DNA of 64,000 nt from Thiovibrio frasassiensis. GTDB taxonomy: Bacteria > Desulfobacterota > Desulfobulbia > Desulfobulbales > Desulfurivibrionaceae. The notes under the pieces are model-generated. The model saw nothing but the letters and a program-made list of their open reading frames with translations. It had not been told where the DNA came from and did not search any database. The stretch covers positions 2,137,530 to 2,201,529 of the forward strand of contig NZ_JAPHEH010000001.1 of assembly GCF_029607905.1 (NCBI RefSeq). The letters are read 5' to 3'. Both the position numbers and the translations under genes were made by a program. This document shows positions 11,786-25,119 of this stretch, piece after piece. Within the stretch, counting starts at the first letter, position 1. Each line of letters begins with the position of its first letter.

Positions 11786-12640
11786 TCACCCCTTCTTGAA
11801 CAATTTATAGATGGCGGAAAAGTCTTCCTGGTCGATGCCCTCTTCAAAGGTTCTCCCGTACAGCTCTTTGACCACCGCAGCGGTGAAGAGGGAAGTTTTC
11901 TCTTCATAGGCCAGATCCTGGAGGCAATGGAGATCTTTGTAGATCAGGGCGCTGGAAAAATGGGTGGAGAAATCCTCCTGGAGCAACTTGTTTCGCTTGG
12001 CATTGAGCACCAGCGAGTTGCCGCCCCCTACGGAAAGGATATCCAGGATCTCTTCCTTCTGCATCCCGATGGTTTCCCCCAGCGAGAGCGCCTCGGCGAT
12101 GGTGGCCATGAAGCTGCCCAGGGTCAGGTTGTTGATCAGTTTCATCTTGGTGGCCAGCCCCGGAACCTTCAGAAAGAAAAGATTCTTACCGATGTTTTCC
12201 AGCACCGGCCTGACCTTGTCGTACCCTGCCTCCTTGCCGCTGACCAAAACGGTGAGGGCTCCCTGCGAAGCGGGCACGACGCTGCCCAGGACAGGGGCCT
12301 CAAGATAGATTCCCCCGGCTTTTGCGCACAGGGCATGGAAGTGGGGGACCTCTTTGAAATGGTTGGTGGAGAGATCCACGATCACCTTGCCTGCGAGATC
12401 GGCGGACAACAGTCCGCCCTCCTGGCTGAGGATGGCATGGACCGCCGCGCTGTCGAACATGCAGACAAAGATAATCTCTGCCTTTTCCGCCACCAGCCGG
12501 GGGGAGGGAGCGACTTCACCCTGCAGCCCTTCTGCTTTGGCGGGGGTTCGGTTCCAGACGGTGAGGGTGTGGCCGCAGTCCAGGAGTCGTCCGGCGATGG
12601 CTTTGCCAAGGTGTCCAAGTCCAATAAATCCTAAATGCAT
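11786..12640 (-). CDS. Beta-hydroxyacid dehydrogenase (3-hydroxyisobutyrate dehydrogenase family)
   Basis: A 284-aa NAD(P)-dependent oxidoreductase of the HIBADH/GarR/GLYR family. The N-terminal Rossmann motif is FIGLGHLGKAIAGRLL. The substrate-binding block APVLGSVVPASQGALTVLVSG lies near 115-135. The catalytic Lys lies in TKMKLINNLTLGS. Asn-Arg after the Rossmann beta-2 strand (VWNRTPAKAE) hints at NADPH preference. The substrate cannot be assigned from sequence; glyoxylate or succinic-semialdehyde reductases of this family look alike. It precedes the flavin reductase-like gene by 72 bases on the same strand. Confidence 0.9.
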   Translation of the reverse strand: MHLGFIGLGHLGKAIAGRLLDCGHTLTVWNRTPAKAEGLQGEVAPSPRLVAEKAEIIFVCMFDSAAVHAILSQEGGLLSADLAGKVIVDLSTNHFKEVPHFHALCAKAGGIYLEAPVLGSVVPASQGALTVLVSGKEAGYDKVRPVLENIGKNLFFLKVPGLATKMKLINNLTLGSFMATIAEALSLGETIGMQKEEILDILSVGGGNSLVLNAKRNKLLQEDFSTHFSSALIYKDLHCLQDLAYEEKTSLFTAAVVKELYGRTFEEGIDQEDFSAIYKLFKKG

Positions 12641-12769
12641 TGTCTTTACCTCGGGAATTGTGTGTTTGCTGGAGAACGCAGGGGCAGGCCGTGCGGGTCA
12701 GTGGGTCGGGCGGAGGCCTGTTAGGGCTGGAACTCAGTTGACTGACTTATTATAGCGTATAATTTGCCT

Positions 12770-13054
12770 TTAGAAACGGGAATCGTTTTCACAGGGGATC
12801 CCATCGTGATCGCCATCCATTTTTGTGTCTGGACAGTTCTGCACAAAGAATTTCGCCTCCGCCCGAGACGTCATTTGACTGCAATGCTGCCTGCCATCAC
12901 AGGTAAACGACTCTTTCTTTGAAGGGTGTTGAGAGCTTTTGGCTACTGTGGGTGTACCTTCTGCACCCATATAGGCATTTTTTGGCCCAATATCGTTATG
13001 ATAAATGGACCAACCTATTGCGATGGCAATGGCAAATAATAGTATTTTTTTCAT
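12770..13054 (-). CDS. Excalibur calcium-binding domain protein, exported
   Basis: A 94-aa protein with an N-terminal signal or anchor helix (KKILLFAIAIAIGWSIY) and a C-terminal excalibur domain (about 50-94). That domain shows FTCDGRQHCSQMTS, then AKFFVQNCP and the EF-loop-like DGDHDGIPCEN, whose Asp residues would bind calcium. One cysteine of the usual pattern (MTSCAEA) is Arg here (MTSRAEA). It is an isolated gene at the left edge of the AT-richer island. Extracellular or periplasmic; function unknown. Confidence 0.85.
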   Translation of the reverse strand: MKKILLFAIAIAIGWSIYHNDIGPKNAYMGAEGTPTVAKSSQHPSKKESFTCDGRQHCSQMTSRAEAKFFVQNCPDTKMDGDHDGIPCENDSRF

Positions 13055-13139
13055 AGATGAGATGTCTTTGTATGCGAAGTTTTAAAGGTTGGTCTCTGCG
13101 GGCGGCAATGAGCCGTCCGTTGGCGCGACTTGTTCGATC

Positions 13140-13697
13140 TTAGCTCGTGTAATGAAGGGTAAGACACTCCACCCTACCCGCAGCGTCGAAGCGTATTCCT
13201 TCATGCTCCAGCAAGGCCCGCTTCATGTCGAGGCCGCCCTGGTAGCCGCCAAGAGTGCGGTCGGTACGGATGGCCCGGTGACAGGGGACGATGAGGGGGA
13301 ACGGGTTGCTAGCCAGGGCATTGCCCACGGCCCGCGCGCCATTTCTTTTCCCCAGATGCCCGGCGATGAGCTGATAGGTGCTGACGCTCCCCCGGGGAAT
13401 CCGGTACTCCGCACGCAGAACCCGCTGCTGAAAGGCACCGCACAAGTTGAGGTCCGCAAGCGCAAGCGAGAAGTCGATAGCCTCTCCTGCAAGCAATCCT
13501 TTGATGCCGGCAGCTACAGCCTCGATCTCCGCACAGGAGGAGGACCGGGCATTCGGGTACAGCCCGGAAGCCTGGTCTTCCGCGGATAAGCCGGGCCTTG
13601 CAAGTAAGACCCGGATGATCTTTGGCTTCTGAGTGGCTACGGTCCAGATGACCCCAACAGAGCCAAAGGGAGTTGGCTTGATGATCTTTGTATTCAT
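13140..13697 (-). CDS. ogt: Methylated-DNA--protein-cysteine S-methyltransferase
   Basis: Suicide DNA-repair protein that takes the methyl group from O6-methylguanine. The active-site block NPFPLIVPCHRAIRTD holds the acceptor Cys in PCHR. The helix-turn-helix part RIPRGSVSTYQLIAGHLGKRNGARAVGNAL precedes it, and LGGYQGGLDMKRALLEHEG follows. Start chosen at 13697 (MNTKIIKPTPFG, 185 aa) rather than the in-frame ATG 6 codons upstream. No Ada-type transcription domain is present, so it is the Ogt/MGMT type. Confidence 0.94.
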   Translation of the reverse strand: MNTKIIKPTPFGSVGVIWTVATQKPKIIRVLLARPGLSAEDQASGLYPNARSSSCAEIEAVAAGIKGLLAGEAIDFSLALADLNLCGAFQQRVLRAEYRIPRGSVSTYQLIAGHLGKRNGARAVGNALASNPFPLIVPCHRAIRTDRTLGGYQGGLDMKRALLEHEGIRFDAAGRVECLTLHYTS

Positions 13698-13747
13698 GTG
13701 TGGAACGCAAAGCAAAGAGGCGCGCCTCGCGGAGGTTGGGCAAATTG

Positions 13748-14029
13748 TCAGCCCTGTTTTGTGTAATTCTTGAGGTCTCTGTAATAATTTTCATGCTGTC
13801 CAAGCATGATGAGCTCTAGTGTCGTTTCGGTAAATCTATAGGCAAGGAGATGTTGCGTTGATTGGATTTTGAATTTGTGGACAAATATGCCACGCAAATC
13901 CCCTTTTTTCTCGATTCCGATTTTGGGGTTGCTGATAATGGTTTTAATTTCATTATCTAGCGTTGTTTTTTCTGTTTTGTTCAATTTCTTAACTTTTTGG
14001 GCGAATGACCTCGATTGGTAGATTTTCAT
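13748..14029 (-). CDS. RelE/ParE-superfamily toxin
   Basis: A 93-aa basic protein with the fold signature of type II toxins: N-terminal helix (SFAQKVKKLNKTEKTTLDNEI), then the beta strands GDLRGIFVHKFKIQSTQHLLAYRFTE and LELIMLGQHENYYRDLKNY. The LLAYRF strand and C-terminal aromatic residues are usual in RelE-like mRNA interferases and related ParE toxins. It starts 5 bases after the antitoxin gene stop, the standard antitoxin-then-toxin order. Whether it cleaves mRNA or targets gyrase cannot be decided. Confidence 0.82.
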   Translation of the reverse strand: MKIYQSRSFAQKVKKLNKTEKTTLDNEIKTIISNPKIGIEKKGDLRGIFVHKFKIQSTQHLLAYRFTETTLELIMLGQHENYYRDLKNYTKQG

Positions 14030-14034
14030 CTTGG

Positions 14035-14253
14035 TTAACCGAAGGTATATTCAGTTTTTTCGCCATGATCTAACTCGTTAATACCAATGAGTATTTCTTT
14101 TATAAGGTCATAGGTTAAATCTGGGTTTTCTTCCACGCATTTTCCAATACGTGCCCAGTGTTCAATTTGCCCAGTTATAGATCTGTGATCTACTTTGCTA
14201 TATTTTCTTGCGTCAGTGAGGAGATTTTCAGAGATTCGCACTGCGGTTGCCAT
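14035..14253 (-). CDS. ParD-like antitoxin
   Basis: A 72-aa protein resembling the ParD-like antitoxin family (MATAVRISENLLTDARKYSKV, then HRSITGQIEHWARIGKCVEENPDL). The N-terminal strand ATAVRIS and following helix are the ribbon-helix-helix DNA-binding part; the C-terminal residues would wrap the toxin. A GGAGG ribosome site precedes ATG 14253. It forms an operon with the RelE-like toxin downstream and probably autoregulates the pair. It sits within the accessory island near the cassette array, where such stabilising modules are frequent. Confidence 0.82.
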   Translation of the reverse strand: MATAVRISENLLTDARKYSKVDHRSITGQIEHWARIGKCVEENPDLTYDLIKEILIGINELDHGEKTEYTFG

Positions 14254-14471: not shown

Positions 14472-15191
14472 TCAGTATATTCCAGGAATCAACCGATAAC
14501 GCACGCGTTGTGCATAGTCTCGATAGCCCGGCAACTCTTCCTGTAACGTCTGGTCTTCAAGGATGGTCCTGATCACCGTAATGATTAATGCCACTGCCGC
14601 AGGTATCAGGGTCCATCCCGAGCCCAGAGCCAAAACAATACCGAACAGCGGGGGAATATTTCCGGCATAACCCGGATGCCGCACAAACCGGTACGGGCCG
14701 GTATCACACACCACATGCCCTCGGTCCGTCTGAATCCGCACCACGCTGGAGAAAAAGCGGTTCTCTGCCAAGGCCCATGCAGCGAAGGCGTATCCTAGCG
14801 AGATCAAAATAAAGCCAATCACGATGAGCCATGGCGGAAATTCGGGAGACCAGTTGTAGCGATGGTCCAATCCTGCCACAATTACCATAGGGAAAGCGAC
14901 ACTCACCGCCATCAGCGGAGCAAGCACTTTGTCCCAGGCTTTCGCGTTTCGGATATTTTCAATATTTTGCCTTTCGGCCAACAATCCGGGATGTCGTTGT
15001 TCCGCCCAGATGCGTCCCCCAACACCAGCGGCAAAGATCAGGAGGGAATAGAGCCACGCCTGCCACCAACCGAGGTCTCCACCGCATACCAATAAAATCA
15101 GCGGGATAAGGAGATACACCAAAACTAATCTTATCCACTGGCGAGGGGATACTGTTTGAGCGGCCTCTTCTCTAACCGTCTTCGAAGACAT
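14472..15191 (-). CDS. Isoprenylcysteine carboxyl methyltransferase-like membrane protein
   Basis: A 239-aa multi-pass membrane protein of the ICMT/phospholipid-methyltransferase (NnrU-like) type. It has about five hydrophobic segments, then the C-terminal SAM-binding signature DTGPYRFVRHPGYAGNIPPLFG and a distal LEDQTLQEELPGYRDYAQRVRYRL block, in which the paired Glu and Y-x-x-Y-x-x-x-V-R-R-like pattern is usual. The bacterial substrate is unknown. Its ATG lies 35 bases past the recombination-type core of the attC-like site at 15226, the same geometry as the cassette genes beside it, so it may itself be a cassette gene, but no attC was found after its stop. Confidence 0.8.
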   Translation of the reverse strand: MSSKTVREEAAQTVSPRQWIRLVLVYLLIPLILLVCGGDLGWWQAWLYSLLIFAAGVGGRIWAEQRHPGLLAERQNIENIRNAKAWDKVLAPLMAVSVAFPMVIVAGLDHRYNWSPEFPPWLIVIGFILISLGYAFAAWALAENRFFSSVVRIQTDRGHVVCDTGPYRFVRHPGYAGNIPPLFGIVLALGSGWTLIPAAVALIITVIRTILEDQTLQEELPGYRDYAQRVRYRLIPGIY

Positions 15192-15225
15192 GCCATTCCC
15201 CAGAATAAAAAGGATTTGAGTGTGT

Positions 15226-15298
15226 GTCTAACGTCGCCCGTAAGCCGCGCGAACGAAGCGCAGCGAAGAGAGCGTCGGCTTGACGGGCGACGTTAGGG
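15226..15298 (-). other. attC-like integron recombination site 3
   Basis: Read on the minus strand, an imperfect palindrome begins with CCCTAAC and ends with GTTAGAC, which fits the GTTRRRY core exactly. The arms ACGTCGCCCGT (15231-15241) and ACGGGCGACGT (15283-15293) are perfectly complementary. AAGCCG and CGGCTT extend the stem after a one-base bulge, as attC sites do. The site is 73 bp, within the usual range. It overlaps the stop codon of the cassette gene on its right. Confidence 0.85.
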
Positions 15299-15892
15299 CA
15301 CACTCGCATACTCCTGCATCTTGATGAGATGTGCCTGCACTAGGTCATTATTCTTGGCCATTGCGGCTAGTTGCGCCGAGGCGATCAATCCGTAGGCACC
15401 AGAGGCGTTGAGGCATTTGATTACGTCCGCCACGGGGTAGTTAGACCCAAGCGCTCCGTTGCCGTGCCGGCGGGTAACTTGAATGTATCCAGTGTGCGTG
15501 AAGTCGTTAAGCGGACCCCATGCATTTTTCTTCATCTGCGACAGGGTAGGTTGATATGCGCCAATTGCAGCTTCAATTTCTTCCGTCATGTCTCCGAAGT
15601 GTTTTTCAATGCCGCGTTTCTCGAAACGCTCCAGTTCAGCATCGGTTGCGCAGTGCAGAAGCCACAGTCCCCTTACCAGCGACTCAATAAGAACTCGCAT
15701 CAGAGCGTGCATTGAGCCAAACAATTTTGAATCACAGAGAATCGCAATAGCAGCCTGATGCTCTATTGCCACATCAAAGCAGGCGGATGCTATTTGCTCC
15801 CTGTGCCCTCCAGAAATCTCGATTCCTTTGGTGTTTTCATCAATCCACCGAATGAGATCCCGAAGAGATCTGAACTGTGCGTCGATGTCCAT
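15293..15892 (-). CDS. Cassette-borne protein of unknown function
   Basis: A 199-aa, mostly helical soluble protein. Segments such as AFDVAIEHQAAIAIL-type helices (residues 37-50 here), SMHALMRVLIESLVRGLWLLHCA (about 61-83) and the central NDFTHTGYIQVTRRH stretch resemble a widespread group of uncharacterised bacterial DUF proteins (DUF6988/DUF5677-like), but I cannot assign a function. The stop codon TAA is built into the attC-like palindrome at 15226-15298, and the ATG lies 12 bases past the neighbouring site, exactly the packing of an integron gene cassette. All three cassettes face the same way. Confidence 0.75.
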   Translation of the reverse strand: MDIDAQFRSLRDLIRWIDENTKGIEISGGHREQIASACFDVAIEHQAAIAILCDSKLFGSMHALMRVLIESLVRGLWLLHCATDAELERFEKRGIEKHFGDMTEEIEAAIGAYQPTLSQMKKNAWGPLNDFTHTGYIQVTRRHGNGALGSNYPVADVIKCLNASGAYGLIASAQLAAMAKNNDLVQAHLIKMQEYASVP

Positions 15893-15903
15893 ATGGTCCT
15901 AGC

Positions 15904-15989
15904 GTTTAAGCTAACCTGACCGCGCCACCTGTGTTTGCCGCGTTAGCGCCGCCAACGTCCTCGCGATCAGGTTAAGCGCCTGGTTAGGC
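15904..15989 (-). other. attC-like integron recombination site 2
   Basis: On the minus strand it opens with GCCTAAC (15989-15983), a perfect RYYYAAC half-site. The inner arms TAACCTGA (15912-15919) and TCAGGTTA (15967-15974) are complementary and extend through CCGCG/CGCGA with one mismatch and a one-base bulge. The distal core reads CTTAAAC instead of GTTRRRY, so this half-site is diverged. Total 86 bp. It directly follows the stop of the 162-aa cassette gene. Confidence 0.8.
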
Positions 15990-15990
15990 G

Positions 15991-16479
15991 CTATTGGTTG
16001 ATAGAAAAAAATGATTTAATAAATTTTTCTGTTATTTCAGATAGATATTCATTTGTAACCATCGAAAGTTCCACCTTTGATTCGTCAAACTCTGATGAGC
16101 CAGACAAACGGCTCTTAATCGTAAGATATTTTGACCGACCATCATGTTTGAAAGTTATAGATGGATCAATTTCTGGAGAAAGTTTATTGCCCTGAAATCT
16201 TGTTTGTCGGTCTACAACCAGTGAGACTGAAGTGTTTATTTGTTCATCCGAGTGAGCATCTCGTGCCCCTCCCAACACCGCTTCGCAGGGGTACTTCCTT
16301 TTTTGCAGTTCTTTTTTTATAGATACGAATACTTTGTATATTTCGCTGAGTTTTTGTGTCGCATTCCTTCTTGTTTCATTTAACTCTTTTTCAAGCTTTG
16401 CTTTTTCGACAGCGGCTCTTTTCTCTTTGTCTTTTTCGTCTTTTTCGTATTCATCTATGGTTTTATGCAGCCAATCCAT
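15991..16479 (-). CDS. Cassette-borne coiled-coil protein of unknown function
   Basis: A 162-aa protein. Residues 1-60 are strongly charged (long Lys/Glu stretches) and should form a helix or coiled coil; the rest (about 65-162) alternates in a beta-strand-like way with SVSLVVDRQTRFQGNKLSP and RSKYLTIKSRLSGSS. No family recognised. AT-rich coding unlike the core genes. It has a GGAGAA ribosome site before ATG 16479, 21 bases past the core of attC site 1, and ends directly at attC site 2, so it is a single-gene cassette of about 600 bp. Confidence 0.75.
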   Translation of the reverse strand: MDWLHKTIDEYEKDEKDKEKRAAVEKAKLEKELNETRRNATQKLSEIYKVFVSIKKELQKRKYPCEAVLGGARDAHSDEQINTSVSLVVDRQTRFQGNKLSPEIDPSITFKHDGRSKYLTIKSRLSGSSEFDESKVELSMVTNEYLSEITEKFIKSFFSINQ

Positions 16480-16499
16480 TGAATTCTCCTTTTTTGTGC

Positions 16500-16559
16500 G
16501 CCTAACACACGCCTAGCAGGCTGGCGTCTCTTGCTGAGCCAGCCAGATGAGTGTTAGGC
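16500..16559 (-). other. attC integron recombination site 1
   Basis: The clearest site of the three. GCCTAAC (plus 16500-16506) and GTTAGGC (16553-16559) form the outer cores inside an 11-bp perfect inverted repeat (GCGCCTAACAC / GTGTTAGGCGC, 16498-16508 and 16551-16561). The inner arms GGCTGGC (16519-16525) and GCCAGCC (16538-16544) are perfect around a 12-base loop. Unequal spacers between inner and outer arms supply the unpaired bases typical of attC. At 60 bp it is at the short end of the known range. Confidence 0.92.
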
Positions 16560-16562
16560 GCC

Positions 16563-16904
16563 CTATTCCCCACTAAGTTGATTTTCTTTTATTAAAATTT
16601 TTTCAACTTCTTCACGTGAAATGATACTTCTATTATAAAGAGCATATGAGTACCCCCCACTTTCAATTTTGAATCCTTTGCTTGTTGCAACACAGCCAAA
16701 TTCTATATCTTGAATGATGTTTGGATAGAAGAAAGAAAATATAGAGTTAAACTCTTCTTGGAGTAGATGCGTCTTCTCCATATCAGAAGAGCACATACCA
16801 GCTCCTTCTGGAGCATCGATTTCGGTTATATACCCATCATGTTTCATTATATTAATAAATAGATCTAAATTAAATTCACCTGAAGATATACGTTTCTTAA
16901 TCAT
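16563..16904 (-). CDS. Cassette-borne hypothetical protein
   Basis: A 113-aa acidic, AT-rich gene of unknown function. The sequence shows a mixed alpha/beta pattern (LDLFINIMKHDGYITEI, then LLQEEFNSIFSFFYP, then VATSKGFKIESGGYSYALYN) and no motif I recognise. Its stop lies 1 base from the 11-bp outer repeat of attC site 1, and its ATG is 17 bases past a GTTAGGC core at 16921-16927 (minus strand). It is the first cassette of the visible array by orientation. Confidence 0.7.
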   Translation of the reverse strand: MIKKRISSGEFNLDLFINIMKHDGYITEIDAPEGAGMCSSDMEKTHLLQEEFNSIFSFFYPNIIQDIEFGCVATSKGFKIESGGYSYALYNRSIISREEVEKILIKENQLSGE

Positions 16905-16920
16905 GAATTTACCTTTTTGC

Positions 16921-16927
16921 GCCTAAC
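16921..16927 (-). other. Recombination core (GTTAGGC) bounding the cassette array
   Basis: The minus strand reads GTTAGGC here, followed by GC, the same as after attC site 1. It marks where the first cassette would have joined an attI or an earlier attC. The next 180 bases towards the P-type ATPase gene are AT-rich and hold no integrase gene and no second arm that I could pair with it, so the upstream partner looks lost or diverged. Confidence 0.6.
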
Positions 16928-17114
16928 ATATTTATTGTCGAGCTAGCGCGATATGAAATTTTCCGTTTGATTCCTAACTCTTAAATCGATCTAATGTGTG
17001 AGGATTTTGCGTATTTTTTCCTTAAATAGCAACATATCCACCCCGTAGGGGGTGTTATCTGTCTACCTGACAATATGGAGCAATACAAGCAATTTATTCT
17101 TTCAAGACGGTTGG

Positions 17115-19838
17115 TTACGGCTGCTTCATTGTTCCCGGACGCCTTTTGGCCAACAGCATGGAGATCGGCACCCCGGCCAGTACCGGGACCACGCTCATCA
17201 TCAGCACCAGCCCCCAGCCTTTAAGCCCCGGGTCGGAAACCTTGAGAATATCGGAGAGGCCGGGGAGGTAGATGGTGGCGACCAGCATTGCGGAACAGAG
17301 CGCTGCCGCGCCCCAGATGAAGGGGTTGCGGGTGATGACGTTGTTGAAAAAGGATGCCCCGTGGTCGCGCATGTTCAGGACATGCCAGATCTGGGCGAAG
17401 GCCAGGGTGAGAAAGGAGACGGTTACCGCCTGTTGGGTATCCATGGCGAGCCAGTTTTGGGCCAGGGCCAGGGCGCCGAGCACGGACAAGGCGATGAGCA
17501 ACCCGTAGGCCAGGACCAGCAGCCAATGGCTTCGGGTCATGATGGGCTCGCTTTTGTTCCGGGGCGGATTGGTCATGATGGTGGGGTTGCTTTCCCCTGC
17601 GGCCAGGGCCAGGGCGGGGAAAACATCGGTGACGATGTTGAGAAAGAGAATCTGCAGGGGCAGGATCGGCAGCGGCAGGATGAAGATGGCGGCCAGGGTG
17701 ACGGCGAACATCTCGCTCAGGTTGCAGGAGAGCAGGTAGAGCACGAATTTGCGGATGTTGTTGAAGATGATCCGCCCCTGCTCGATGGCGTGGACAATGG
17801 TGCCGAAGGCGTCGTCTTTCAGGATCATGTCGGCTGCTTCCCGCGCCACCTCGGTGCCGTGCTTGCCCATGGCGATGCCGATGTCCGCTTTTTTGAGGGC
17901 CGGGGCGTCGTTGACCCCGTCGCCGGTCATGGCGACGATGGCCCCGGCCTGCTGGTGCACCTCGATGAGATCGAGCTTCTGCTGGGGGCTGACCCTGGCA
18001 AACAGCGGGGTGGCCAGGATGCGGGACTTCTCCATGGCGGTGAGATGGGGCACGTGCTTGAGTTCCTTGCCGATCATCACCGGGGCGTCGTCTTGCTCGG
18101 TCAGGCCCACCGCCTTGCCGATGATTCTTGCGGTGACCGGTTGATCCCCGGTGACCATCACCACCCTGATCCCGGCCTGGCGGCAGAGGGCGAGCGCTTC
18201 CTTGACATCGGCGCGCGGCGGGTCGAGAAAGCCGGCCAGGCCGACGAGCTGCAGGTTTTCATAGGGGTTGGCTGCAACGTTTTGCGTCCTGCCGCTGGCC
18301 AGGGCCAGCACCCGGAGCCCTTGGCTGGCGAGGGCTTCGTTGCGCCGCAACCATTCGTCCTTGGCCGCGGCGGTGAATGGGGCCGCTTTCCCATCCTCCA
18401 TGACAGTAGTGCATACCTCCAGCACCGCTTCCGGCGACCCTTTTACCGCCACCAAAAATCCATCCTCTTGGCGGTGCAGGGTGGCCATCATCATGGCCGT
18501 GGGGTCAAAGGCCTCTTCCCGTGCTTCGGGCATTTGGGCCAGCAGTTCGGGCAGGTGCAGGCCACCCTTGGCCGCGCCTTCCAGCAGCGCCACCTCCAAA
18601 GGATCGCCCACCGGCTTGCCGGATTGACTGTTGCGGCTCAGCGAGGCGTTGTTGCACAAGGCGCCGATCATCAGTCCGGCGCGGAGTTGGGGATGGGTTT
18701 CCGGCGTAAGCGGGATGAGGCCCAACAGGAAAGGGGTGGCAGGGTCCTGGGGCACCGTGACTCTCCCATCGGGGAGAAAAAGGGTGGTGAGGGTCAGCTT
18801 GTTTTCCGTGAGGGTGCCGGTCTTGTCCGTGCAGATGATGCTGGTGGCGCCCAGGGTTTCCACGGCGGAAAGCTCCTTGATCAGGGCATTGTGGCGGGCC
18901 ATGCGCCAAACGCCTCGGGCCAGGGCGATGGTGGCCACGATGGGCAGCCCCTCGGGGATGGAGGCCACGGCCAGGGCGATGGCGGTTTCGATCATCAGAA
19001 ACACGTCCTTGCCGGTGAGGATGCCGGAGAGGGCCACGAGAAAACCGATCCCCAGGCTGGCCCAGACCAGCCAGTGGCCCAGTTGGTTGAGCCGTTTTTC
19101 CAGGGGGGTGGTCTCGTCCTCGGTTTCGGCAACGAGTTGCGAAATGGTGCCCAATTCGGTGTGCATGCCGGTGCCGACCACCACCCCCTCGCCGGAGCCG
19201 CGGCTGAGGGCGGTGCCCTTGAAGAGCATGTTGCTCCGCTCGGCCAGCGGGGTGTCGGGCGGCAGCTCCAGGGGGTTCTTGGTCACCGGCAGGGATTCGC
19301 CGGTGAGTACCGATTCGTCCGCCTCCAGTTTGGAGCTGGTGATGATCCGCAGATCAGCGGTGATGACATCGCCGACTTCGAGAAGGACAATGTCTCCGGG
19401 CAGCAGTTGCTCGGCGGAGATCTCCTGGGCCTGGCCGTCGCGCCGCACCCTACAGTGTACCCGCCCGAGCTGGCGCAGCGCCTCCACCGAACGCACCCCC
19501 TTGATCTCGGTGACAAAGCCGATGACGGCGTTGATGACGATGACCATACCAATGGCAATGCCTTCCACATGCTCGCCAAAGGCGAAAGAGAGCAGGGCGG
19601 CAGCCACCAGGAAGACGACGATGAGATTCTTGAATTGATTGACCCAGATATCCCAAGCGCTGACGGTTTTGGTCTTGCGCAGCAGATTGGGGTCGTAGCG
19701 CTTTCGGAGTTGGGGGATTTCGCTCTGTGTCAGCCCCGACTCGGGGGAGACCCGCAGTTCGCGAATGATCTCCTCCCAGGGTTGCGCCCAGGGGGTTTGC
19801 GGAAAAAATGGGGCTGGGGCTTTGCTTAAATGGGGCAC
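17115..19838 (-). CDS. Cation-transporting P-type ATPase, SERCA-like (P2A) calcium pump
   Basis: A 907-aa inner-membrane pump. Order of features: N-terminal cation-ATPase domain (1-60), helices M1-M2 (about 70-110), actuator domain with TGES (179-182), M3-M4 with PEGLP (295-299), phosphorylation site DKTGT with Asp338, nucleotide domain with KGSPE (466-470), TGD (563-565) and GDGVNDAP (639-646), then M5-M10. The ion-site residues of SERCA are kept: Glu296 in M4, Asn706 and Glu709 in M5, and Asn734, Thr737, Asp738 in M6. This argues for calcium transport with both sites present. Other cations (for example manganese) are possible. It lies beside the cassette array but has core-like composition. 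Confidence 0.92.
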   Translation of the reverse strand: MPHLSKAPAPFFPQTPWAQPWEEIIRELRVSPESGLTQSEIPQLRKRYDPNLLRKTKTVSAWDIWVNQFKNLIVVFLVAAALLSFAFGEHVEGIAIGMVIVINAVIGFVTEIKGVRSVEALRQLGRVHCRVRRDGQAQEISAEQLLPGDIVLLEVGDVITADLRIITSSKLEADESVLTGESLPVTKNPLELPPDTPLAERSNMLFKGTALSRGSGEGVVVGTGMHTELGTISQLVAETEDETTPLEKRLNQLGHWLVWASLGIGFLVALSGILTGKDVFLMIETAIALAVASIPEGLPIVATIALARGVWRMARHNALIKELSAVETLGATSIICTDKTGTLTENKLTLTTLFLPDGRVTVPQDPATPFLLGLIPLTPETHPQLRAGLMIGALCNNASLSRNSQSGKPVGDPLEVALLEGAAKGGLHLPELLAQMPEAREEAFDPTAMMMATLHRQEDGFLVAVKGSPEAVLEVCTTVMEDGKAAPFTAAAKDEWLRRNEALASQGLRVLALASGRTQNVAANPYENLQLVGLAGFLDPPRADVKEALALCRQAGIRVVMVTGDQPVTARIIGKAVGLTEQDDAPVMIGKELKHVPHLTAMEKSRILATPLFARVSPQQKLDLIEVHQQAGAIVAMTGDGVNDAPALKKADIGIAMGKHGTEVAREAADMILKDDAFGTIVHAIEQGRIIFNNIRKFVLYLLSCNLSEMFAVTLAAIFILPLPILPLQILFLNIVTDVFPALALAAGESNPTIMTNPPRNKSEPIMTRSHWLLVLAYGLLIALSVLGALALAQNWLAMDTQQAVTVSFLTLAFAQIWHVLNMRDHGASFFNNVITRNPFIWGAAALCSAMLVATIYLPGLSDILKVSDPGLKGWGLVLMMSVVPVLAGVPISMLLAKRRPGTMKQP

Positions 19839-22437: not shown

Positions 22438-25119
22438 CTAGCGCAGCTCGGCCAGCCGCTCCATGCCCGCTTTGATCTTCTCCAGCTTGGCCTGCATTTC
22501 CCCGACCTTCTCCCGCTCCTTGGCCTTCACTTCTTCCGGGGCGTTGGCCATGAACTTTTCGTTGCTCAGCTTGCCCTGGCAGCGGGCCAGTTCGGCTTCG
22601 GTCTTGTCCTGATCCTTCTTGAGCTTGGCCTGTTCCTTGTCCACATCCACCAATCCGGCCAGCGGCACGAAGATCTCGATGTCGGAATAGAGATAGGAGG
22701 CCGCGCCCTTGGGGCGGGTGCCTTCCTTCTGCACGGCCATGGTGGAGGTGCGGGTCAGGGTCTTGAGGGAAGAGGCAAGGGAGGTCAGCCCCGCGTGTTT
22801 GCGCTCGTCGTGGCAGACGATCTGCACCTCGATCTCGGCGGAGGGGTGGATCATGGCCTCGCTGCGGATGTTGCGGATCCCGCCGACAATCCCCATGAAG
22901 AGCGCGGCCAGCTCGGCGGCTTCATCATCATCCCAGGCCGGGTTCGGTGCGGGGAAGGGTTCGACCATGATGCTGGTGCGCTCTCCGGGCAGCACATGCC
23001 AGATCTCCTCGGTGACAAAGGGAGTGATCGGGTGCAGGAGCTTGAGCGTGTTTTCCAGCACCGCCAGGAGCACCGCCTGGGACTGCGCTTTGGCTATGGC
23101 GTTGTCGCCGTAGAGATCGGACTTGATCCACTCCAGGTACCAGTCGCAGAACTCGCTCCAGACAAACTGGTAGATGGAGGAGGCCGCATCGTTGAAGCGG
23201 TAGTCGTCCAGGGCCTGACGCACCTCGGTGATCGCCTGGTTGAGCCGGTGCAGGATCCAGCGGTGGGCCAGGGGCAGGGTGGACGGGTCGATATCCTTGC
23301 TGATCGCGGGATCGCAGGTATTGATGTGCATGAGGGCAAAGCGGGAGGCGTTCCAGATCTTGTTGATGAAGTGGCGGTACCCCTCGATGCGTTCCTCGGC
23401 GAGTTTGATTTCGCGGCCCTGGGCGGCAAAGGCGGTGAGGGTGAAGCGCAGGGCATCGGTGCCATACTCATCCATGACCACCAGCGGGTCGATGACGTTG
23501 CCCGTGGATTTGCTCATCTTCTTGCCGTGCTTGTCGCGGACCAGGGCGTGGAGATAGACGTCCTTAAACGGCACCTCCTCCATGATGTGGATGCCCATCA
23601 TCATCATCCGGGCCACCCAGAAGAAAAGGATATCGAAAGAGGTGATCAGCACCGAGGTTGGGTAGAAGAACTTCAGCTCTTTGGTGTTCTCGGGCCAGCC
23701 CAGGGTGGAAAAGGGCCAGAGGGCCGAGCTAAACCAGGTGTCCAGCACGTCGGTTTCCTGGGTGAGTTTGCTGGAGCCGCATTTATCGCAAGCGGCCGGG
23801 GCATGCTCCTCAACCATGAGCTGGCCGCAGTCGTCGCAGGTCCAGGCCGGGATCTGATGTCCCCACCAGATCTGGCGGGAGATGCACCAGTCGCGGATGT
23901 TGTCCATCCAGGCGTAGAAGGTGTTGTACCAGGTCTTGGGGTGGATGTTGATCCGCCCGTCCCGTACCGCGGCCACGGCCTTGTCGGCCAGGGGCCGAAC
24001 GGAGACGAACCACTGCAATGAGGTGGCGGGCTCGACCACGGTTTTGCAGCGGTAGCACTGGCCCACCGCATGCTCGTAATCCTCGATTTTTTCCAGGAAC
24101 CCCTGCTCTTCGAGGTCGGCGACGATCTGCTTCCTGCAGGCGAAACGGTCCAGCCCGGCATAGGGGCCGGCGGCCTGGTTCATGATCCCGGAGTCGTCCA
24201 TGGTCTTGATGCGTTCGAGATTATGGCGCAAGCCGATCTCGTAGTCGTTGCGGTCATGGGCCGGGGTGACCTTGAGCGCGCCGGTGCCGAATTCCCGCTG
24301 CACGTGGTGGTCATACACCACCGGAATGGTGCGGTCGGTTAGGGGCAGTTTGATGCCGATCTCTTTCAGGTGTTTGTATCGCTCATCGTCGGGGTGCACT
24401 GCTACGGCGGTGTCGCCCAGCATGGTCTCGGGCCGGGTGGTGGCGACCACCACGTGCCCCGAGCCGTCGGCATAGGGGTAGCGGATGTGGTAGAGCTTGC
24501 CCGCCTTGTCCTCATGCTCCACCTCATCGTCGGAGAGGGCGGTGTGGCAGCGGGGGCACCAGTTGACGATGTAGTCGCCTTTGTAGATCAACCCTTCCTT
24601 GTAGAGGCGGACAAAAACGGTGCGCACCGCCTTGGACAACCCCTCGTCCATGGTGAAGCGTTCCCGGTCCCAGTCGCAGGAGCAGCCCAGATGCTTGAGC
24701 TGGTTGATGATGGTGCCGCCTTTTTCCTCGCGCCATTGCCAGACCCGCTCGATGAACTTCTCGCGGCCGAAATCGTGGCGGGTTTTTCCCTCGTTGGCAA
24801 GCTGCCGCTCCACCACGTTCTGGGTGGCGATGCCGGCGTGGTCGGTGCCCGGCACCCAAAGAGTGTTGTAGCCGCACATCCGCTTGTAGCGGACCAGGAC
24901 ATCCTGCATGGTGTTGTTCAGGGCGTGTCCCACATGGAGCACGCCGGTGACATTGGGCGGCGGGATGACGATGGAAAAAGAGGGCTTCCCTTCGTCCATG
25001 GTGGCCTGAAAGTTTTTCTGCTCAAGCCATTTCCGGTACCAGCGGGCCTCGACTTCTTTGAATTCGTATCCCTTGGCCAGTTCATGTTCGGCGGGTTGGA
25101 CGGAAGCGTTTTCGCTCAT
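22438..25119 (-). CDS. valS: Valyl-tRNA synthetase
   Basis: Class I aminoacyl-tRNA synthetase that charges tRNA-Val and edits misactivated threonine. The 893-aa protein has the HIGH-type signature PPPNVTGVLHVGHALN (HVGH at 62-65), an editing domain (about 200-350, with TTRPETMLGDTAVAVHP), zinc-ribbon-like Cys clusters (CYRCKT, CDDCGQL, CDKCGSS), KMSKS at 534-538 and a C-terminal coiled coil (from about residue 825) that binds tRNA. Full length. The downstream dGTPase-like gene upstream on this strand ends 3 bases before its start, so they are likely cotranscribed. Confidence 0.98.
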   Translation of the reverse strand: MSENASVQPAEHELAKGYEFKEVEARWYRKWLEQKNFQATMDEGKPSFSIVIPPPNVTGVLHVGHALNNTMQDVLVRYKRMCGYNTLWVPGTDHAGIATQNVVERQLANEGKTRHDFGREKFIERVWQWREEKGGTIINQLKHLGCSCDWDRERFTMDEGLSKAVRTVFVRLYKEGLIYKGDYIVNWCPRCHTALSDDEVEHEDKAGKLYHIRYPYADGSGHVVVATTRPETMLGDTAVAVHPDDERYKHLKEIGIKLPLTDRTIPVVYDHHVQREFGTGALKVTPAHDRNDYEIGLRHNLERIKTMDDSGIMNQAAGPYAGLDRFACRKQIVADLEEQGFLEKIEDYEHAVGQCYRCKTVVEPATSLQWFVSVRPLADKAVAAVRDGRINIHPKTWYNTFYAWMDNIRDWCISRQIWWGHQIPAWTCDDCGQLMVEEHAPAACDKCGSSKLTQETDVLDTWFSSALWPFSTLGWPENTKELKFFYPTSVLITSFDILFFWVARMMMMGIHIMEEVPFKDVYLHALVRDKHGKKMSKSTGNVIDPLVVMDEYGTDALRFTLTAFAAQGREIKLAEERIEGYRHFINKIWNASRFALMHINTCDPAISKDIDPSTLPLAHRWILHRLNQAITEVRQALDDYRFNDAASSIYQFVWSEFCDWYLEWIKSDLYGDNAIAKAQSQAVLLAVLENTLKLLHPITPFVTEEIWHVLPGERTSIMVEPFPAPNPAWDDDEAAELAALFMGIVGGIRNIRSEAMIHPSAEIEVQIVCHDERKHAGLTSLASSLKTLTRTSTMAVQKEGTRPKGAASYLYSDIEIFVPLAGLVDVDKEQAKLKKDQDKTEAELARCQGKLSNEKFMANAPEEVKAKEREKVGEMQAKLEKIKAGMERLAELR

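Follow-up and report, generated by a model that had tools for sequence, protein, structure and literature searches.

The stretch 15226-16927 of the window (the whole 64-kb piece of Thiovibrio frasassiensis DNA analysed here) holds what its sequence identifies as real integron cassettes, lying beside an integron docking site whose integrase gene, intI, is reduced to its first 15 codons. It is strongly indicated that this docking site, a headpiece carrying the start of intI and an attI site, has been copied around the genus and that each copy acts, or has acted, as a docking site without an integrase of its own. The array locus itself is of an ordinary kind; the dispersed intI-less attI platforms are the unusual part. 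The initial annotation had read the region as a gene-cassette array without an integrase (a CALIN). That reading is correct but incomplete, as it missed the attI, the continuation of the array to about 13700 and the dispersal of the headpiece. Features are collected in Table 1, where G numbers denote genomes (G000 being the genome of the window).

Table 1. Features of the cassette array and its docking site, in window coordinates.
Feature	Position	Strand	Remarks
intI stump, first 15 codons (MEQYKQFILSRRLVT)	17075..17119	+	divergent from array; 43/45 nt and 14/15 aa as in the start of G015 intI
attI headpiece (intergenic region and attI)	16925..17089	-	model R1, 98.9 bits, E 5e-28; alignment A3
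attI core (GACAATAAATATGTTAGGC)	16921..16939	-	putative crossover G16927/T16926; G002 homology ends here; resembles attI2 core AATAAAATGTTRRRY
Cassette 1 gene	16563..16904	-	113 aa; no family
attC 1	16500..16559	-	60 bp; 7/7 end-core pairs
Cassette 2 gene	15991..16479	-	162 aa; no family
attC 2	15897..15989	-	mutated right core GCTAGGA
Cassette 3 gene	15293..15892	-	DUF6988 (Pfam 7e-27); candidate phage-defence family PDC-S52 (PADLOC 9e-26)
attC 3	15226..15298	-	73 bp; 23.5 bits, E 0.0024; fold z -6.0
ICMT/PEMT-like methyltransferase gene	14472..15191	-	Pfam 4e-10; follows attC 3, 34 nt from core
ParD/ParE-like toxin-antitoxin pair	14035-14253 and 13748-14029	-	Pfam 4e-20 and 3e-30; within variable stretch
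attC 3' remnant, core GTTCCAC at 13700-13706	13700..13738	-	precedes MGMT-like gene; G002 has whole attC there

As initially described, three genes on one strand are each followed by a palindrome, and on the array strand (minus) the single-stranded fold of each palindrome is better than that of nearly all of 200 shuffled versions (z of -6.0 for 15222-15302, -3.9 for 15900-15993 and -4.9 for 16496-16563). The coordinates given earlier for the outer sites, 15226-15298 and 16500-16559, stand. The right core of the middle site had been placed at 15904; a better candidate is the mutated GCTAGGA at 15897-15903, GTTAGCT (15904-15910) then serving as inner arm. This middle site resembles part of the complete integron of a relative (locus L053; 83% over 69 bp). 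The packing is that of cassettes, with corrections in detail: stop codons had been reported to abut the core, which is so for the gene at 15991-16479, whereas the stop of the gene at 16563-16904 lies 3 nt ahead of its attC core and that of the gene at 15293-15892 falls inside the core, and starts lie 4-34 nt past the preceding core, not 12-35.

A strict attC pattern (RYYYAAC...GTTRRRY with at least 6/7 end pairs and an inner arm) occurs in the 64 kb only at 16500-16559, against an expectation of 0.02 per shuffle. We also built an attC covariance model from 18 class 1 and Vibrio sites, to which the attC sites of relatives were then added, leaving out the own genome; the plasmid-integron sites were curated by hand from annotated cassettes, since a regex finder recovered few. 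By this model, whose E-values are rough owing to short calibrations, the three array sites rank top of the window. The initial annotation would have been contradicted by low scores at all three; the site at 15298-15226 is clear by itself, and those at 15989-15897 (14.1 bits, E 0.39) and 16500-16559 (12.5 bits on the plus strand, 11.2 on the minus; E about 1-2) are weak. Only 15226-15298 is clear by the model; the other two rest on folding, packing and comparison. A model restricted to class 1 and Vibrio sites missed the window sites under default filters and returned two of them, weakly scored, with filters off. An Rfam search of the window gave no match, and no attC was found 3' of the methyltransferase gene. 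In the own genome, six of the seven attC matches listed sit behind a headpiece. Separately, the top-scoring attC of this genome (43.5 bits; L124:2303-2362, G000:C1:327302-327361) is a lone site with no headpiece nearby.

Comparison with related genomes bears directly on the array. By the protein of the adjacent P-type ATPase gene, the nearest relatives are G004 (91% identity) and G002 (89%). The DNA of G002 is 88% identical from the ATPase gene through the intergenic region to position 16923, where the match stops within GTTAG, and homology resumes only at 13738, the attC end ahead of the MGMT-like gene. Between these same flanks G002 carries a SIR2-like gene, an unknown gene, a Phd/RelE-like pair (named by eye) and three attC sites; the window carries cassettes 1-3, the methyltransferase gene and the ParDE-type pair, which is missing from the corresponding place in G002. 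As judged from this comparison, the array reaches about 13700, beyond the third attC. The GTTAGGC at 16921-16927, previously taken to bound the start side of the array, does so, with homology to G002 breaking at its G-TT core. Cassettes are present or absent among related genomes at such junctions, in G002 here and as empty versus occupied platforms elsewhere. Neither G000 nor G002 has an intI above the profile cut-off, and since their cassettes differ, exchange continued after the species parted. At the far side, a small gene, by eye Excalibur-domain-like, lies between the MGMT-like and conserved HIBADH-like genes (12640-13140); the gene content there is different in G004, and the variable stretch may therefore extend to 12640.

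The 196 bp preceding the first cassette form a dispersed repeat. The whole headpiece, 16925-17119, comprises the 15-codon start of intI together with the intergenic region and a core like that of attI2, and the stump runs directly into the 3' end of the ATPase gene. Relative to other copies, the window headpiece is without about 45 bp mid-element. On sequence grounds, the core at 16921-16927 qualifies as a genuine attI following a truncated intI: it stands next to the first cassette, the headpiece shares homology with sequence upstream of an intact intI, and the break falls at G-TT. The class 2 attI core AATAAAATGTTRRRY (PMC12901181) resembles the window attI core AATAAATATGTTRRRY, and related cores (CTCGCGCTAGATAATAATATAGTTA) adjoin intI in G016 and G007 (L051, L155). 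We infer that the intergenic region acts as a cassette promoter; a sigma-70 promoter scan of two headpiece copies gave no match. Little covariation was seen when the headpiece was examined for a structured RNA. Directly upstream of the intI start, an imperfect palindrome, TGTCAGGTAGACA (17058-17072), is near-invariant across copies and is a possible operator.

The own genome is 95% complete, with a main contig of 2.80 Mb out of 2.84 Mb, of which the window spans 2137530-2201529. No intI was found in this genome: the best TIGR02249 score, 85 bits, falls below the cut-off of 265, XerC and XerD being all that was recovered, and a G015-type IntI had no match. Likewise, no intI exceeds this cut-off in G002, G005, G006 or G010, which also bear headpieces. 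The earlier description of the array as integrase-less thus holds for the locus and, on the wider search it proposed, for the genome, although the stump at 17075-17119, all that the locus retains of intI, had been overlooked. Intact genes are found in relatives. In G015, a 410-aa integron integrase begins inside the headpiece repeat, with the 3' end of valS about 20 bp away, and intI adjoins valS also in G007 (97% identical, its start truncated where the contig ends), in G011 and, within the family, in another genus. Of the headpiece, only the opening 54 bp are attached to the intact G015 gene before the contig ends; among the genomes examined, none was seen with an intact intI adjoining a complete headpiece. 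G015 additionally carries a stump copy of about 45 codons, nearly identical to its intact intI, which points to a probable recent duplication. AsmA-like and ATPase genes lie between valS (22438-25119) and attI in the window. Because the intact intI of relatives adjoins valS, and the ATPase and AsmA genes intervene here, the locus is most likely a valS-anchored chromosomal integron that has been beheaded by loss of intI.

Integrons are typically described with one attI adjoining intI. We searched for further copies of the headpiece with a model, R1, built from 19 aligned copies; the genomes compared are MAGs, some of them contaminated. The element is about 240 bp long, and left-half-only copies exist. 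With R1, G000 shows six full and two partial headpieces, none of the six adjoining intI, and G002 eight matches. Matches, some of them partial, occur in 12 of 16 relatives from the same genus, and one neighbouring genus has them too; beyond the family, only G033 gave a match, which is marginal (E 0.005). In the set examined, 38 copies reach the attI end and nearly all diverge right after G-TT, mean pairwise identity being 0.84 in the final 30 bp ahead of the junction and 0.27 in the sequence beginning 5 bp beyond it. In 35 of these 38, an ORF of 50 aa or more starts no further than 120 bp past the junction. Nearly all attC matches at headpiece loci (32/33) lie downstream on the array strand, the remaining one being the palindromic twin of another, and many had already been detected by the class 1/Vibrio-only model. 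About half of the copies have no downstream attC match, some owing to contig ends. At several unrelated loci intI homology ends after GGTTA, at codons 14-15, and many stumps carry stop codons or have lost the start. Among about 85,000 species genomes, the 25-bp attI end occurs at 16 places, in deltaproteobacterial or proteobacterial MAGs including Desulfobulbaceae UBA2273.

Orthologous headpiece copies hold from 0 to 2.7 kb of differing cassettes, often defence or toxin-antitoxin genes. At one platform the right flank lies 28-37 bp past GTT in G010, where it is empty, and about 1.0, 1.9 and 2.4 kb past GTT in G001, G006 and G000, respectively, where it is loaded; at another, the variable stretch measures 0.5, 1.6, 2.2 and 2.7 kb. 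Headpieces with different first genes also occur downstream of a RecB-like gene in G002, G004 and G006. G002 and G000 share a toxin-antitoxin cassette with its attC (88.5% over 793 bp), which follows a different platform in each, and members of one attC subfamily (about 91%) are found after several platforms as well as at the G016 locus that bears intI. By profile annotation, platform cargo includes SIR2-like, TIR, FRG (PDC-S15), AriAB (E 7e-203), AAA/Old-like, PDC-M30A, trypsin-like and DUF3800/DUF4062 proteins. Chromosomal integrons are viewed as stores of defence genes, and this cargo fits.

We consider it highly probable that a valS-anchored integron array was beheaded and that the headpiece was dispersed as integrase-less docking sites. 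Under this model, cassettes would have been inserted one by one at attI (16927/16926) through IntI-mediated attC x attI recombination. All of the integrase gene but its first 15 codons would have been lost, the stump now being separated from valS by the ATPase and AsmA genes, and the headpiece, comprising the intI start and attI, would have been copied to many chromosomal places in the genus. An IntI acting in trans, either a former resident copy or one brought in, would have loaded these sites, the first cassette being driven from the intergenic region, and the system would amount to several small libraries of defence and toxin-antitoxin genes. Recombination at these sites, loading in trans and the manner of headpiece spread we infer from sequence comparison. 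More tentatively, and at slightly less than even odds in our judgement, the arrangement may be a distributed integron, in which one IntI, resident or visiting, serves many intI-less attI platforms that are copied as units and receive defence cassettes, so that species without intI keep reloadable platforms.

The dispersed headpieces could instead be products of plain decay, each the remnant of a separate complete integron, with no dispersal as a unit and with sites that no longer work. Decay would account for intI stumps such as those at the copies, many of them interrupted by stop codons or lacking the start, and also for the stump of about 45 codons that G015 carries besides its intact gene. 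Random decay would not, on the other hand, give stumps that end alike at unrelated loci, at codon 14-15 after GGTTA, and the differing cassettes of intI-less sister species indicate that loading continued after their split; we regard decay as an unlikely, though serious, account. Off-target insertion by a trans-acting IntI at a secondary site of the attG type, with no attI involved, is among the proposed origins of CALINs (PMC8618304), and a G-TT core would suffice for it. Here the junction lies not in sequence unrelated to attI but at the end of a conserved headpiece that is common to dozens of loci and carries the start of intI, which attG sites would not share, making such insertion very improbable.

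Nor do we give much credence to the headpiece being, in place of a recombination site, a MITE-like or promoter-bearing element inserted ahead of genes. Its dispersal, its length and the left-half-only copies would suit such an element, but nearly every copy loses homology at G-TT, with unrelated ORFs beginning within about 20 bp and attC sites coming after it on the same strand, and in G015 the IntI gene starts inside the repeat. The close packing of genes on one strand might finally suggest a fixed operon with palindromic terminators between its genes. Identical gene order in many distant relatives, which the initial annotation named as the observation that would speak for this, is not what the junctions show: G002 has different genes at the same place and a related platform is empty in G010, leaving the fixed operon a negligible prospect.

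CALINs are attC clusters without an integron-integrase, defined by attC alone (IntegronFinder, PMC9024848). The array is like them in having attC cassettes on one strand and intI neither nearby, save the 15-codon stump, nor in the genome; at least two clustered attC sites are present, one clear and two that are weak by model but accompanied by folding, packing and turnover. It differs in its genuine attI, its intI stump and the presence of the same headpiece at six loci. With sedentary chromosomal integrons it shares a conserved place (valS), an attI, a divergent intI start, and cassettes mostly of unknown, defence or toxin-antitoxin function; unlike them, intI is gone and the docking sites are spread rather than serving one long array. 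Extra attI copies away from intI are likewise known from delta-attI-type cassettes of class 1 and 2 integrons (PMC12901181), where fragments of attI take the place of attC after cassettes within a single integron; the headpieces here are whole and precede arrays at independent chromosomal loci. Cassettes at chromosomal G-TT away from intI also recall attG sites (Loot et al. 2024, cited in PMC11023631); these differ strongly from the classical att sequence, while the headpieces form one homologous attI family.

CALINs have been proposed to arise by off-target insertion, intI loss or rearrangement (PMC8618304), and dispersed attI sites with cassettes would be an additional route, one that makes CALINs predictable from sequence. 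Since IntegronFinder seeks attI of class 1 only (PMC9024848), dispersed platforms of this kind would go unseen by it. The platforms would also serve as natural replicates, one empty or holding 1-2.4 kb and another 0.5-2.7 kb, for the study of cassette turnover and phage-defence loading. Our search of the open-access literature for dispersed intI-less, orphan or multiple attI sites, with subscription journals outside its scope, gave nothing on point, and the novelty of these platforms is provisional.

With regard to a vehicle for the headpiece, the exact attI end had no match in IMG/VR contigs, plasmids held nothing similar to the headpiece, and a search for IS91-type transposases gave no match in the own genome, nor any in control genomes, so that this result does not speak for their absence. 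The left end of the headpiece, where homology stops after GGTTA at several loci, may be a second IntI crossover, although a single fixed end is hard to square with the longer stump, of about 45 codons, in G015. In G009, an IS91-type pair (a tyrosine recombinase and a transposase, only the transposase being named by eye) lies directly after a headpiece attI GTT (L098:722-3118, G009:C139). The twin of this headpiece in G023 (L097) has a cassette-like junction there, and the pair is a possible vehicle for headpiece spread. Downstream of the RecB-like gene, G011 carries a second attI family, the same as adjoins its own intI, which recurs in G004 and G010. This family, ending in CCACTTATTACACTG-TT, is itself dispersed (L042 and L136 in G011, L164 in G004, L165 in G010), adjoining intI at G011:C7, with intI not seen at G011:C43, G004:C41 or G010:C15. 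A third attI-like end (AATTTTAATGTTAGGC / AATATTAACGTTAGCC; L131/L135) lies a few hundred bp 3' of the RecB-like gene in G010 and in a second contig of G006.
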